Positions 4,954 through 10,638 of a stretch of DNA of 14,811 nt are shown here, piece by piece; the stretch's first letter is position 1, and each line of letters opens with the position of its first letter. Position numbers and translations under genes: made by a program. Under the pieces are notes generated by a model. The model was not told the origin of the DNA. It worked only from the letters and a program-made list of their open reading frames with translations, and searched no databases. The stretch lies in NCBI GenBank assembly GCA_021739805.1, contig JAIPBB010000113.1:1-14811 (forward strand), in the 5' to 3' direction. This stretch comes from Saprospiraceae bacterium (GTDB lineage: Bacteria; Bacteroidota; Bacteroidia; Bacteroidales; JAIPBB01).

Positions 4954-5658
4954 TTACTTTGCAAACACCTTCTTCAGTATATCTGTAACTCTGGCAACAG
5001 GGTCTGTTCGGATTTTCTTTTCTTCTTCAGCTATTTTGAAAAACAATCCGTCCATTGCTTTTTCAGTTACATATTTTGTGAGATCGGTTTCAACTTTAGT
5101 TACAAATGGAATTTTATTGTAAATGCCGGTTATATCATCCCAGTATTTTGTTACGGCAACCTGGTCGAGAGTTTGTTGTACTTTTGGTTGAAACAATTTA
5201 AACAACTCTGCACTTGTTTTATCCTTGAAATAGTTGGTTGCTGCATTGTCAGGTCCTTGCAAAATTTGCTTAGCATCAGCAAAACTCATTGATTTAACTG
5301 CATTAGCAAAAATTGGAGTTGCTTGTTTAACTGCTTCACTTGCTCCTTTGTTCATATTCACAACAAATTCATCAACTTTATTACCCATACCTATTTGACG
5401 AAGCTTTTCTTCAACTTTCTGAGCTTCGGGTGGGAAAGGAATTTTTAAAACAGGATTATTAAGAAAACCGCCCTCTTGACTTAAATTGCCAACTGCATTC
5501 TTGGTTCCTACATTAAGAGCGTCTTTTAAACCTGCAACAATTTCGCTATTAGTAAGTGGTGCCGGACCTTGAGGAGCCATACCAATTATGGATTCCAAAA
5601 CATCACATGATGATAATGTGAAAATTATTGCAATTAGAACTAGATTAAATTTTTTCAT
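4954..5658 (-). CDS. DUF4197 domain lipoprotein
   Basis: A 234-residue protein starting with a lipoprotein signal (MKKFNLVLIAIIFTLSSC), with the lipobox cysteine at position 18, so it should be lipid-anchored in the periplasm or outer membrane. The body reads LTNSEIVAGLKDALNVGTKNAV, then PFPPEAQKVEEKLRQIGMG, VNRAAE-like KGASEAVKQATPIFANAV, ADAKQILQGPDNAATNYF and KYWDDITGIYNKIP. These are the hallmark blocks of DUF4197, a widespread all-helical family in Bacteroidota and Proteobacteria with no established function. The length is usual for the family. It is divergent from frr across 165 bp; I see no perfect minus-strand TAnnTTTG there. It converges with the nitroreductase gene across the composite repeat. 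Confidence 0.9.
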   Translation of the reverse strand: MKKFNLVLIAIIFTLSSCDVLESIIGMAPQGPAPLTNSEIVAGLKDALNVGTKNAVGNLSQEGGFLNNPVLKIPFPPEAQKVEEKLRQIGMGNKVDEFVVNMNKGASEAVKQATPIFANAVKSMSFADAKQILQGPDNAATNYFKDKTSAELFKLFQPKVQQTLDQVAVTKYWDDITGIYNKIPFVTKVETDLTKYVTEKAMDGLFFKIAEEEKKIRTDPVARVTDILKKVFAK

Positions 5659-6520: not shown

Positions 6521-7510
6521 TTATTCAGTACAATTCTGACAAATATCAATTTCCTTGCGGGATTTTAAAATTTTATTCCGAAATGATTTATAATCCTGGT
6601 TTTTCCAAATATCAATTAACTTTTCTTTTTGCAAATCACCAAACTGATATTTTGCATCCTTATCAAAACAACAAGGAACGACTTTTCCATCCCAGCTTAT
6701 AACGCAGGAAGTCCACATTCTCAAACATTTGTTTGGCATTTTTCCTTTTATTACGAATTTTCCATTTTCTTCAATATAGCGGGAGTATTTTTTGTTTGCA
6801 GGTATTAAATCAGCATTTTGAGAAGGCTCATAAATTTGAGCTGACTTTATTTCAACTTTATTTACACCCAAATCCTTTGAAAGTTTTTTAATATCTTCAA
6901 TTTGATGCTCATTATGTTTGAAAACTATAAACTGAATAACGATATACGGAAAAGAAGATTTCAATTCTTTTTTTTGTAAAACAAGGTTTTTTATTCCTTC
7001 TAAAACTTTATTTAATTCTCCGCCTTTTCTGTATTTTTCATAGGTTTCCTGATTGGTGCCATCAACTGAGATTATCATTTTATCTAAACCCGATTCAATA
7101 ATCTTTCTTGAGTTTTCAATATCTAAAAAGTGAGCATTAGTAGATGTTGTAGTGTAAATGTTTTTGCTTTTTGCATATTTCACAAAATCAAAGAATTTGT
7201 CATTAAGCAAAGGTTCGCCCTGAAAATAAATAATTAGGTAAAATAGTTTTTTATAGAGTTGGTCGATTGTTGTTTTAAAAAGCTCAAAATCCATTTTGCC
7301 GGTTGGACGGGTGAATTGCTTTAATCCTGAAGGGCATTGAGTACAACCCAAATTGCATGAAGTTGTTGGTTCGATTGAAATGGAATAAGGCATTCCTTTA
7401 TGGAATGATTTTTTTATAATAATTGAAAAATAATAACTGAAAAACAATTTTAGCAAATTGAATATTCGCTTAAATGTAAGTTTAGAAAGAAGATTTAAAT
7501 TGTCTTTCAT
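6521..7510 (-). CDS. Radical SAM protein with SPASM domain
   Basis: A 329-residue protein. After a basic, hydrophobic N-terminus (about 10-35) that may touch the membrane, SIEPTTSCNLGCTQC carries the radical-SAM cluster motif C52-x3-C56-x2-C59. YFQGEPLLN is the SAM-binding GEP motif and MIISVDGTNQETYEKYRKGG is a typical mid-barrel block. The C-terminus has SPASM-type cysteines: C262, C269, the C280-C281 pair in KVVPCCFD, and C324 and C327 in CQNC. They should bind one auxiliary Fe-S cluster, or two. Such proteins modify peptides, sugars or lipids, or mature other enzymes; the substrate cannot be inferred because there is no precursor-peptide gene beside it. A -7 box (TAAATTTG on the minus strand, 7568-7575) precedes it. 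It is divergent from the ATPase-TOPRIM operon. Confidence 0.9.
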   Translation of the reverse strand: MKDNLNLLSKLTFKRIFNLLKLFFSYYFSIIIKKSFHKGMPYSISIEPTTSCNLGCTQCPSGLKQFTRPTGKMDFELFKTTIDQLYKKLFYLIIYFQGEPLLNDKFFDFVKYAKSKNIYTTTSTNAHFLDIENSRKIIESGLDKMIISVDGTNQETYEKYRKGGELNKVLEGIKNLVLQKKELKSSFPYIVIQFIVFKHNEHQIEDIKKLSKDLGVNKVEIKSAQIYEPSQNADLIPANKKYSRYIEENGKFVIKGKMPNKCLRMWTSCVISWDGKVVPCCFDKDAKYQFGDLQKEKLIDIWKNQDYKSFRNKILKSRKEIDICQNCTE

Positions 7511-7567
7511 TATTAATTATAGAGCTTGTTTGATAGTTTTGGACTAAACGACATAAATTTTTTCATG

Positions 7568-7575
7568 CAAATTTA
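7568..7575 (-). promoter_or_regulatory. -7 element upstream of the radical-SAM gene
   Basis: Minus-strand TAAATTTG matches TAnnTTTG exactly, about 58 bp before the ATG. No TTTG is found at the expected -33 distance, so the promoter is incomplete or relies on an activator. Confidence 0.4.
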
Positions 7576-7622
7576 CACAAACGTATGAATAAAATTTATA
7601 CAGAGTTACGAGATGAATTTTA

Positions 7623-7653
7623 TTTGCACTATGGATATAATTTTTTATTTTTG
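7623..7653 (+). promoter_or_regulatory. Bacteroidota-type promoter of the ATPase-TOPRIM operon
   Basis: TTTG (7623-7626), a 19-nt spacer and TATTTTTG (7646-7653) match the -33/-7 consensus. The predicted start is near 7660, leaving a leader of only about 12 nt before the ATG at 7672. The operon therefore has its own promoter. Confidence 0.6.
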
Positions 7654-7671
7654 CTTATTAACTAATTTAGA

Positions 7672-8943
7672 ATGATAAAAACTATAGAAATAAAAAATTT
7701 TAAATCTATTGATAAGCTGAAATTGGAAATTGATAGATTTAATATTTTGATTGGTGAAAATGGTTGCGGTAAAAGTAATATTTTAGAAGCAATTGCATTT
7801 GGTGCTGCTGCAAGTGCAAATCAGCTAAAAAGTGAGTTTCTGACTTCAAGAGGTGTAAGGACATCAAAACCAGAGTTAATGAGAGCAGGGTTTTCAAAAG
7901 CAAATACTAAAAAAGAAATTCATATTAATTTTAAAATACAAAAATCAGTAGATGCCCTTATTAACAACGTTATGAATGGGGAGAGCCCCAAAGATATTAT
8001 TTTGCATGGATTTAAGAATATTGAATATAAACTTCAAAATGATAATGAGCCATACTCTGACTGGTATGATGTTGAAAAAGTTGAAATGACTGAAAATATT
8101 CCTAGGATTTTATTGGATTTATTTTCTGGGAAAATGATTGCTGAACTTGATGAAAAAGAAAAAATTATAGAAATAAGAAAAATTCTTTATGAATTAATTG
8201 ACAAAATACCAGGTGATGATATTCAAGAAATTTTAAGAAGCAAAGGGACCAAATTAATTTTAGAAGAGCAATATATTAAAGATAAATACGATGCTTCACT
8301 GTCAGATTTTACAATTTATTCACCAGAAAATAATTTTTTAAGAAAGTTTGAAGACGAAGAAAAAACACAACCATTAGGAACCAAAGGCGAAGGATTGTTT
8401 AAGCTTATAAAAGTTTTTTCAGAAGAGAAAAATAGAACTTCAATAAAAGAGATAAAACAATATTTGAAAATTATTGATTGGTTTGAAGATTTTGAAATAA
8501 CAAAAAAAGCCTTTGGTGGTGAGAAAAACATTAATCTAAAAGACAGATTTATTGATGAGCAATTATTCATCCAACAGCATAATGCAAATGAAGGATTTTT
8601 ATTTTTGCTCTTTTATTTGAGTTTATTCATTAGCAAAAATACTCCTTCCTTTTTTGCTGTTGATAACATAGAAGCCTCCTTTAATCCGAAACTTTGTTCA
8701 GAGGTAATAAAAATTTTAAATGAATTATCAAAAAAATATAATAAGCAAGTAATACTCACAACTCATAATCCATTTATTTTAGATGGATTAGACTTAAATG
8801 ATAATGAGCAAAGATTGTTTACAATCAAAAGAAATGTAAATGGTGAAACACTAGCGAAACGAATTTTACCCAATAAATCAAAAATTAAGTTATCAGAAGC
8901 CTGGATGTCAGGTTTTATTGGAGGACTCCCTAAAAATTTTTAA
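7672..8943 (+). CDS. SMC/OLD-like ABC ATPase (AAA_15/AAA_21 type), first gene of an ATPase-TOPRIM pair
   Basis: A 423-residue ATPase. It begins MIKTIEIKNFKSIDKL, typical of RecF/SMC/OLD-like proteins, with Walker A G28-ENGCGK-S35. A helical insert spans about 85-290. The signature-like segment is NANEG (304-308), followed by LLFYLSLF. Walker B is FFAVDNIEASFNP, with D331 followed by N332 where most ABC ATPases have glutamate, and E334 two residues on. The H-loop is TTHNP (363-367). It lacks a fused TOPRIM nuclease, which full OLD proteins carry; instead a separate TOPRIM-like gene follows after 2 nt. By analogy with OLD, PARIS (AriA) and RloA-type ATPases, it probably senses phage infection or damaged nucleic acid and controls its partner. 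That role is inference; the fold is firm. Confidence 0.85.
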   Translation: MIKTIEIKNFKSIDKLKLEIDRFNILIGENGCGKSNILEAIAFGAAASANQLKSEFLTSRGVRTSKPELMRAGFSKANTKKEIHINFKIQKSVDALINNVMNGESPKDIILHGFKNIEYKLQNDNEPYSDWYDVEKVEMTENIPRILLDLFSGKMIAELDEKEKIIEIRKILYELIDKIPGDDIQEILRSKGTKLILEEQYIKDKYDASLSDFTIYSPENNFLRKFEDEEKTQPLGTKGEGLFKLIKVFSEEKNRTSIKEIKQYLKIIDWFEDFEITKKAFGGEKNINLKDRFIDEQLFIQQHNANEGFLFLLFYLSLFISKNTPSFFAVDNIEASFNPKLCSEVIKILNELSKKYNKQVILTTHNPFILDGLDLNDNEQRLFTIKRNVNGETLAKRILPNKSKIKLSEAWMSGFIGGLPKNF

Positions 8944-8945
8944 AA

Positions 8946-9596
8946 ATGTCTATTGGTATTATATCTGAAGGAATAACTGACCAGGTTGTTATTACAAATC
9001 TCATCTATGGGTATTTTAATAATACTGATATTAATGTTGAACCCTTACAACCAAAAGATAAAGAGCCTTTTGGGTGGACAAAAGTTTTTAAGTATTGTGG
9101 AACTAATGACTTTAAGGAAGCTTTTATTTGGTATGATTATGTTATTATTCAGATTGATACTGACACGCATGCAGATTGGGAATATAGTAATATTCCACTT
9201 GTATCTTCAAGAGATGAGAAAACAATAAAGAATCAAATTGATAGAGTAGTTGAAATTTTTGTTGAAATAATTGGAGAAGACTTTTACAAAGAAAATAATG
9301 ATAAAATAATATTTGCTATATCTGTCGAAACTATTGAATGTTGGATTTTGCCTTTTTATACAAATCGAAAAGCACATGCGGGGAAAATAGGAAATTGCTT
9401 GCAAACTCTTAATCGAGAATATATTAATCCAAAATTTGGATTTACTATCGACCCTAAAAGGAAAGCCTATGATAATAGCAGATATTATGAGATTGTAACT
9501 GCTCCAATGAAAAATAATCGTGAATTAAAAAAGAATCAATCCTTAAATCCAAGTTTGAAGATATTTGTTAATAATCTTCAGAAAATAAAGAAATAA
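8946..9596 (+). CDS. TOPRIM-like (DUF4276/RloB-type) protein, partner of the ATPase
   Basis: A 216-residue protein that starts with a hydrophobic strand and SEGITD (7-12), then VIIQIDTDTHADW (66-78). The glutamate E8 and the D71-x-D73 pair fit the metal-binding E...DxD of TOPRIM nucleases. ISVETIECWILPFYTN in the middle resembles the conserved E-x-W block of small TOPRIM-like families such as DUF4276 and RloB. Its ATG lies 2 nt after the ATPase stop, so the two are co-translated and probably form one complex. In PARIS, the TOPRIM partner AriB is released by the ATPase AriA and cleaves tRNA; in OLD proteins the TOPRIM part cuts DNA. Which applies here is unknown. The gene ends 1 bp from the convergent AraC gene. 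Fold confidence is moderate because only motifs were judged. Confidence 0.7.
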   Translation: MSIGIISEGITDQVVITNLIYGYFNNTDINVEPLQPKDKEPFGWTKVFKYCGTNDFKEAFIWYDYVIIQIDTDTHADWEYSNIPLVSSRDEKTIKNQIDRVVEIFVEIIGEDFYKENNDKIIFAISVETIECWILPFYTNRKAHAGKIGNCLQTLNREYINPKFGFTIDPKRKAYDNSRYYEIVTAPMKNNRELKKNQSLNPSLKIFVNNLQKIKK

Positions 9597-9597
9597 T

Positions 9598-10638
9598 TTA
9601 CTTTAATCCATCCTTAAACTCCTTAGGCGACACTCCTGTAAATTCTTTAAAAACCCTGTTAAATGTTGATTTGGAATTAAAACCACAATCGAAAGCAATT
9701 GCAAGCAAAGTGAAAAATCGTTGATCGTCTTCTTGTAGCTTTTTCTTTACTTCTTCAACTCTGTAAGAATTGATTAATTGATAGAAATTTGTATTCATTT
9801 CGTGATTTAGAATTGAAGACAGCTCTGTTGTGTCCATCGATAAATGGTAAGCCAGTTTATCAATTGTCAACTCGTTATCTAGATGGATTTTATCTTGCTT
9901 AAAAGCATTTTCAATTAGTATTTGTTTATCAGGATTTTCGCTGATAATGACTTTCTTTTTGAGTTTTTGGGCTTGGTTGTTTTGTTCTTTAAATTGTTTG
10001 GTGATGCTTAAATATCCAATTAAAAACATTCCAATAGCCATTATTAAGTCGAACCATAGTTTAGTTCCTAAATTGAAATTAAAGTCCACAACATTAAAAA
10101 GAAAAATTATTATAGGTAAAATAACGATTAAAATAACTGCAAAGCTTAGTAGTAAAGACGAAATATATAATGATGAATCATCAAAGAAGCGACCACTAAA
10201 TTGTCTTTTTTTATAAACCCTTATTAATAAAGTAAGAAGTGTATAAAATACATAGATGAGAATTAATGCATAGCTTATTAATAGAATTGGTGCAAAGCTA
10301 AATGCTTCATTAAACAACCAAGTAAGAGCATTAAAAAAAGCAACAATTAATGGTAATATAAATAGATGACTCTTAAAAGGACTTTTTATAGAGATTGTCA
10401 ATTGCAGAATAAATAAAGAAATAAAAGAGGTGATTATAAAAATAAAACTAATATTCAAGATGTCTGACAGTAGAAATCCATATCCTTCAGGAAGAATCAA
10501 AACAGTTAACTGAATCAAAGCACACATTATCATTATAATGCTAAGAGAATATTTTTCGATAGTTTTTAATCTGCTTGAAAGAAGCAAAGAAGACCAAAGC
10601 AAAGCCTGAAGTACGATTAATATATTTATTGTTTCCAT
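9598..10638 (-). CDS. AraC-family regulator with N-terminal multi-TM domain
   Basis: A 346-residue protein. Residues 1 to about 212 hold about seven hydrophobic segments, then a charged linker (KQFKEQNNQAQKLKKK). The C-terminal region, about 245-346, is an AraC/XylS double helix-turn-helix: LTIDKLAYHLSMDTTELSSI is the first HTH, and TLLAIAFDCGFNSKSTFNRV with FKEFTGVSPKEFK is the highly conserved second. It should be a membrane-bound transcription factor responding to an envelope or extracellular signal, an architecture common in Bacteroidota. It is co-transcribed with the PH-like membrane protein 3 nt upstream, which may be its sensor partner or target. Its 3' end faces the TOPRIM gene with a single base between stop codons. 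Ligand and regulon are unknown. Confidence 0.9.
   Translation of the reverse strand: METINILIVLQALLWSSLLLSSRLKTIEKYSLSIIMIMCALIQLTVLILPEGYGFLLSDILNISFIFIITSFISLFILQLTISIKSPFKSHLFILPLIVAFFNALTWLFNEAFSFAPILLISYALILIYVFYTLLTLLIRVYKKRQFSGRFFDDSSLYISSLLLSFAVILIVILPIIIFLFNVVDFNFNLGTKLWFDLIMAIGMFLIGYLSITKQFKEQNNQAQKLKKKVIISENPDKQILIENAFKQDKIHLDNELTIDKLAYHLSMDTTELSSILNHEMNTNFYQLINSYRVEEVKKKLQEDDQRFFTLLAIAFDCGFNSKSTFNRVFKEFTGVSPKEFKDGLK

Follow-up and report, generated by a model that had tools for sequence, protein, structure and literature searches.

The 14,811-nucleotide contig JAIPBB010000113.1 of a Saprospiraceae bacterium (assembly GCA_021739805.1), whose full length is referred to here as the window, carries two adjoining genes that encode an SMC/OLD-like ABC ATPase (gene A) and a small TOPRIM-like protein (gene B). 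Comparison with known families supports the assignment of this pair to PDC-M31, a split ABC-ATPase/TOPRIM module of the OLD, PARIS, AbiL and RloAB kind. The ATPases of this type form one clade in which the Walker B glutamate has been lost almost throughout. The two genes are closely coupled in relatives from several phyla, and plasmids and viral contigs carry them as well. Protection against phage is the probable function of the pair.

Assignment of the pair to PDC-M31

Among the PADLOC models, A matches PDC-M31A best (239.5 bits, E 1.7e-71), with lower scores for PDC-M25A (112 bits), AriA (91 bits) and HEC-01A (89 bits). Similarly, the best match of B is PDC-M31B (E 1.5e-9), with HEC-01B a distant second (E 0.011), and the best-matching stretch comprises residues 2-84, or about the first 40% of the protein. 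PDC-M31B is matched by all 62 aligned homologues of B, and PDC-M31A and PDC-M31B are also the top matches for five pairs scanned from viral contigs and a plasmid. The homologues used here, 62 of B and 51 of A, were hand-chosen from 120 listed of 236 matches and 120 listed of 4190 matches, respectively. Relatives share the gene order, and no measured difference separates the window pair from PDC-M31. Additionally, a hidden Markov model search matched neither protein to an unrelated housekeeping family above the defence candidate.

Names of the form PDC-x are described as designating unpublished candidate systems (PMC11811056). A literature search, outside whose scope bioRxiv preprints lie, found no published function for PDC-M31 and nothing on DUF4276 in combination with TOPRIM or defense, and the passages retrieved on Walker B motifs contain nothing on the PDC-M31 family. 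An initial annotation, made from the DNA sequence alone, had suggested a separate or poorly characterised class. This suggestion is borne out in that the pair matches a PADLOC candidate for which no paper was found.

The same annotation had described B as similar to DUF4276 and RloB rather than DUF4435, and the profile comparisons agree. In Pfam, B scores 18.9 bits against DUF4276 (gathering score 30.2) and 16.6 bits against RloB (31.5), both below the cut-off, and DUF4435 gives no match at E ≤ 1. Profile-profile comparison relates B to DUF4276 (probability 90, E 1.5e-6) and, in its C-terminal half only, to RloB (probability 47, E 2e-4). At E ≤ 0.01, DUF4276 is reached by 32 of the 62 homologues and RloB by 21. 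Based on these profiles, B appears to have a distant kinship with both families, DUF4276 being the nearest. The pairs built on these families (RloAB, AbiLi/AbiLii and HEC-01) also place an ABC ATPase gene beside a TOPRIM-like gene. They share with PDC-M31 the glutamate, acidic and later glutamate motifs of the B-type protein, and the C-terminal tails of their ATPases are related.

The TOPRIM motifs of B named in the initial annotation are conserved beyond chance, with E8 present in 62/62 homologues, D71 in 61/62 and D73 in 60/62. A further motif that it overlooked, E131-C132-W133, has its glutamate and tryptophan invariant in 16/16 aligned RloB proteins (from 16 of 27 RloB loci). Structural likeness is faint. 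Foldseek returned no match for B at E ≤ 0.001, and the best structural rows are weak matches to GajA. Of the TOPRIM proteins, only GajA and retron Eco2 were noticed among the matches listed; that others such as AriB and RNase M5 were not noticed there does not argue against a likeness to them. E8 would align with E379 of GajA, going by the offset from the aligned range only. Comparison of B with the sequences of solved structures, as a single sequence or as a profile, gave nothing meaningful. B is a TOPRIM-like protein and a putative nuclease.

Many of the named cyanobacterial homologues of B, among the matches listed, are labelled 'phage tail protein' in public records. This identity was dropped for B, as no PHROG match was obtained at E ≤ 0.01 for the B proteins of the window, L085, L084 and L001. 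Since no PHROG family matches the last of these, a Microcoleus member, the label looks like a propagated error, which suggests that the cyanobacterial entries are really the PDC-M31 effector.

Loss of the Walker B glutamate in the ATPase

Gene A retains the motifs expected for nucleotide binding. The Walker A lysine K34 is kept in 51/51 A homologues and in 83 of 88 family ATPases, the others being four gaps and one alanine. These 88 proteins come from 84 of the 89 loci, three plasmids and the window. The H-loop histidine, likewise recognized in the initial annotation, is present in 87/88 family ATPases (one gap) and in 45 of the 51 homologues, with glutamine in the other six.

The Walker B glutamate is the usual catalytic base of ABC ATPases. 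Alignment with retron ATPases identifies D331 of A as the Walker B aspartate and places N332, which the initial annotation had passed over, at the position of this glutamate. Asparagine occupies the position in 51/51 A homologues and in 87/88 family ATPases, and the lone exception (L095) reads E-S. A control set was assembled from ATPase-like open reading frames (ORFs) in 48 DUF4276 or RloB loci of 118 Bacteroidota genomes by profile alignment. It gave 44 rows from 43 loci, of which one is unreadable at Walker B and one duplicates another gene (L223/L226), leaving 42 distinct readable genes. In contrast to PDC-M31, all 42 (19 DUF4276 and 23 RloB) retain the glutamate.

The signature-like motif also differs. 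N306-E307-G308 is present as NEG in 88/88 family ATPases, and N306 is found in 48 of the 51 homologues, with serine in the remaining three. The readable ATPases of the DUF4276 loci have S-D/E-G at this position; most RloB-locus rows are unreadable there, which makes this a thinner control. Because Walker A and the H-loop are kept while the Walker B glutamate and the signature serine have become asparagine, A is predicted to bind ATP and most likely hydrolyses little or none of it.

Such behaviour is not unique to PDC-M31. GajA is reported to be devoid of ATPase activity, inhibited by nucleotides and regulated by nucleotide binding without hydrolysis (PMC8136825), and the OLD protein of Retron-Eco8 is reported to show no ATPase activity in vitro despite having motifs that are called conserved (PMC12887533). 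Instead, the new aspect looks to be the near clade-wide loss of the Walker B glutamate. In a tree of 55 ATPases, the 27 PDC-M31 rows, drawn from several phyla, form one clade (support 100/100), separate from the 14 ATPases of DUF4276 loci and the 14 of RloB loci. The tree program warns of long branches meeting, which leaves the branching order of the three groups uncertain. Within the PDC-M31 clade, cross-phylum pairings of moderate support (e.g., 91/90 and 93/73) suggest horizontal transfer.

The C-terminal tail of A is a candidate docking peptide for B. GGxP occurs in the final 30 residues of 80/88 family ATPases and, by the same rule, in 6/19 DUF4276-locus rows and 11/24 RloB-locus rows. 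Relaxing the pattern to G[GA]xP brings the latter to 21/24, where the 24 rows include the gene counted twice. The predicted local distance difference test score (pLDDT) is 46 over the final three residues of A. Perhaps this tail, GGLPxNF, would dock B.

Coupling, distribution and genomic setting

Co-occurrence of the two genes in other genomes, whose absence the initial annotation had named as a refutation, is nearly complete. The loci considered are the best 80 of 178 places confirmed with the B profile. In 78 of these 80, a whole or partial A ORF lies directly upstream of B on the same strand. Junctions are mostly 6 nucleotides or less, or overlaps of 26 or 35 nucleotides, which are approximate because start codons were chosen mechanically. 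Both genes are full length in single open frames in 70/80 loci, and some of the other ten are cut by contig ends. The two loci without an upstream A ORF are L004, which begins at B, and L060, a fusion. Likewise, A directly precedes B in seven of nine viral contigs carrying B, the remaining two ending at B, and an ATPase gene directly precedes B in all three plasmids examined, out of six matches.

Some copies have decayed or have an unusual form. In L060 (2005-2739), the first 43 residues of A are fused in-frame to B from profile position 14, and the TOPRIM glutamate is gone. Copies of A without B were looked for systematically in one cyanobacterial family. In the Microcoleaceae, three genomes (G419, G427 and G430) have a full-length A without B, which may reflect one shared event, two (G425 and G431) have a B with an in-frame stop next to a full-length A, and one (G422) has an A split between frames adjoining an intact B. 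Outside the Microcoleaceae, L012 has a split A with an intact B, and L078 has a full-length A with a B matching profile positions 1-194 only. Since full-length A persists without B in three genomes, A is not a toxin needing B as its antitoxin. The cases are few and draft assemblies are error-prone, so they do not settle which partner would be harmful alone; all they show is that A is tolerated without B.

Three further arrangements were observed. In G419, G430 and G427 (L112, L118 and L119), the place of B is taken by a small VapBC-like two-gene pair with a PIN-type toxin motif, as judged by eye. In a Thiotrichaceae contig (L052, 1080-5267), the ATPase forms part of one 1395-residue open frame, behind a stretch that by eye resembles a methyltransferase/nuclease restriction enzyme. 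In a Saprospiraceae genome (L041, 6778-9737 and beyond), the pair is tandemly duplicated as A-B-A-B.

The occurrence of the pair is patchy. Of the 395 Bacteroidota genomes searched, two carry it at E ≤ 1e-15, and one of these is the central genome of that set. In the Microcoleus family, B is present in 22 of 61 genomes, decayed copies counted, and a flanking EamA-type gene (named by eye) in 58 of 61. One genome of this family has an empty site (G423), and in two others (G438 and G424) different genes lie on the corresponding side of the flanking gene.

Mobile elements also carry the module. Small MOBQ plasmids of Acinetobacter have it, as does a Pseudanabaena plasmid typed as non-mobilizable. 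A single-sequence search confirmed no viral-contig relatives of B, and phage GenBank records gave no match at 1e-5; a profile search found nine viral-contig relatives. In three of these contigs (L085, L087 and L089) the pair adjoins a portal gene, followed by a terminase gene. The portal is phrog_68, scanned in L085 and assigned to the other two via a BLAST cluster. A P2 defence hotspot containing old and tin is reported to lie between gpA and the portal gene gpQ (PMC9122126), and the layout of the three contigs matches it, 'P2-type' being a reading of gene order. The gpA gene is not seen in them because the contigs end. Elsewhere, a baseplate gene (L082 and L084) or a DNA methyltransferase gene (L086) is adjacent.

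In the window, the initial annotation had placed a promoter, the ATPase and the TOPRIM-like gene in a tight operon, and the features and spacing it described were recovered (Table 1). The genes share a strand and are separated by 2 nucleotides (8944-8945), and the gene 3' of B is convergent, the ends of the two lying 1 nucleotide apart. The promoter was labelled from a pattern that we take to be the Bacteroidota consensus. With a spacer of 17-22 nucleotides, this pattern appeared in 7/1000 mononucleotide shuffles of 7512-7671, and it occurs four times across the window when both strands are counted. No terminator-like site was found within 7400-9900, and neither a tRNA nor an Rfam RNA that reaches the gathering score was found in the window. 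The GC fractions of A (0.27) and B (0.28) are close to that of the whole window (0.29), so that composition gives no sign of recent arrival.

Table 1. Features of the PDC-M31 pair in the window
Feature	Position	Strand	Basis
Bacteroidota-type promoter TTTG-N19-TATTTTTG (-33/-7)	7623..7653	+	Pattern match; 18 nt upstream of the A start codon
Gene A, 423-aa SMC/OLD-like ABC ATPase, PDC-M31A	7672..8943	+	ORF
Walker A GENGCGKS, residues 28-35 (K34)	7753..7776	+	Conservation
Signature-like motif N306-E307-G308	8587..8595	+	Conservation
Walker B/D-loop FFAVDNIEASFNP; N332 (8665-8667) in place of the catalytic Glu	8650..8688	+	Conservation
H-loop TTHNP, residues 363-367 (H365)	8758..8772	+	Conservation
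C-terminal tail of A LSEAWMSGFIGGLPKNF, to which B may dock	8890..8940	+	Conservation
Gene B, PDC-M31B, TOPRIM-like protein of 216 aa and putative nuclease effector	8946..9596	+	ORF
TOPRIM glutamate E8	8967..8969	+	Invariant in B homologues
TOPRIM DxD motif D71-T-D73	9156..9164	+	Conservation
Third invariant motif E131-C132-W133	9336..9344	+	62/62 B homologues

The genes flanking the pair are of the radical SAM and AraC types, and no helicase gene is adjacent. The radical SAM/SPASM protein immediately upstream (6521-7510, minus strand) has weak PADLOC pVip matches (47-50 bits), which probably reflect just the common radical SAM fold. Farther away, a 452-residue protein (244-1602) has a C-terminal D-x(n)-E-x-K stretch that by eye resembles PD-(D/E)xK nucleases; it has no Pfam match above the cut-off and no PADLOC match. 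Two genes on the minus strand (1675-2576; 171 and 128 residues) overlap by one base, and neither has a family match above the cut-off. For the protein at 4954-5658, the closest match among the 395 Bacteroidota genomes has 52% identity.

A possible mechanism and its alternatives

Based on the features described above, a defence mechanism can be proposed. A dimer or higher ring of A would bind ATP and, hydrolysing it poorly or not at all, would be locked in one state. By analogy with PARIS and Gabija, ATP-bound A would bind and restrain B, perhaps through the conserved C-terminal tail, and would release it upon infection. In PARIS, AriA is reported to hold AriB until a phage protein frees it (PMC12409363). 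The signal that breaks the restraint could be a phage protein, as in PARIS, or nucleotide depletion, as proposed for Gabija. Once released, B, acting as a two-metal TOPRIM nuclease, would cut nucleic acid and stop the infection, probably with growth arrest. While protection against phage by such steps seems probable, a stricter version is more tentative and, in our judgement, somewhat doubtful. It would make PDC-M31 a separate split OLD-type class in which the ATPase is an obligate non-hydrolysing ATP gauge that locks the TOPRIM nuclease and yields it to phage-driven nucleotide loss or to a phage protein.

Several observations weigh against a role in defence. Many chromosomal copies lie among housekeeping-type neighbours that are common to related cyanobacterial and Bacteroidota genomes. 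In a rough comparison of counts per model, defence models beside the pair show no clear enrichment over those four genes away, and a defence island around the pair is thus unsupported. AbiLii, a distant relative in kind, gives mixed results, as the protein of Fusobacterium nucleatum alone is reported to be toxic in Escherichia coli and that of lactococci is not (PMC3985639). Finally, Cran1 is described as an OLD-family ATPase with a role in the cell cycle (PMC12796447). For these reasons, confidence in the defensive function is kept moderate. The neighbours, the lack of enrichment and the Cran1 precedent would also suit a module of host physiology, in which a TOPRIM nuclease and an SMC-like ATPase help to repair DNA, maintain chromosomes or turn over RNA. 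Such a role is unlikely, however, given that the pair is rare in Bacteroidota and polymorphic in the Microcoleus family, with an empty site, substituted sites and decayed copies, that small mobilizable plasmids carry it, and that phage structural genes adjoin it.

It is also quite improbable that the pair is a toxin-antitoxin system, with B as the toxin and A as the antitoxin, that persists chiefly through addiction or plasmid maintenance and has phage defence as a side effect. The arrangement as an operon of two genes, whose junctions are short overlaps or gaps of a few nucleotides, the presence on small plasmids and the toxicity of the F. nucleatum AbiLii would all fit. Nevertheless, an intact B stands next to a split A in two loci (L002, which is the same as L159, and L012), though these may be assembly errors. 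Moreover, deletion of either single gene of PARIS is reported not to be toxic (PMC9122126), in keeping with the lactococcal AbiLii. A variant of PARIS or Gabija that shares their trigger and cleaves what they cleave, namely tRNA or specific DNA, is very improbable. The sensor ATPase and the TOPRIM effector of PARIS, a split class 4 OLD system, are likewise encoded by separate genes, AriA and AriB (PMC9122126, PMC12409363), and the AriA model does match A. GajA shares a related ATPase fold and a weakly related TOPRIM fold, and it provides the best structural rows for B. However, A scores 239 bits with PDC-M31A compared with 91 for AriA, and B has no AriB match at E ≤ 1. In Gabija, GajA is one polypeptide accompanied by the helicase GajB, unlike the two polypeptides without an adjacent helicase found here. 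The Walker B asparagine also speaks against a variant of either system. The one-gene (class 1) OLD proteins differ as well in that their ATPase and TOPRIM domains are fused. Thus, of the split-OLD or PARIS-like system that the initial annotation had envisaged, the split ATPase/TOPRIM module of that kind stands, but membership in PARIS, Gabija or one-gene OLD is not supported.

In conclusion, defence systems that combine an ATPase with a nuclease, whether split or fused, are widespread, and some of their ATPases, such as those of GajA (PMC8136825) and Retron-Eco8 (PMC12887533), are reported to show no ATPase activity. The PDC-M31 clade, with the glutamate lost almost throughout (87/88), stands beside related clades that keep it and so provides a ready comparison for the role of ATP in such sensors. 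With the steps proposed here, PDC-M31, an unstudied candidate system, gains a mechanism that can be tested.
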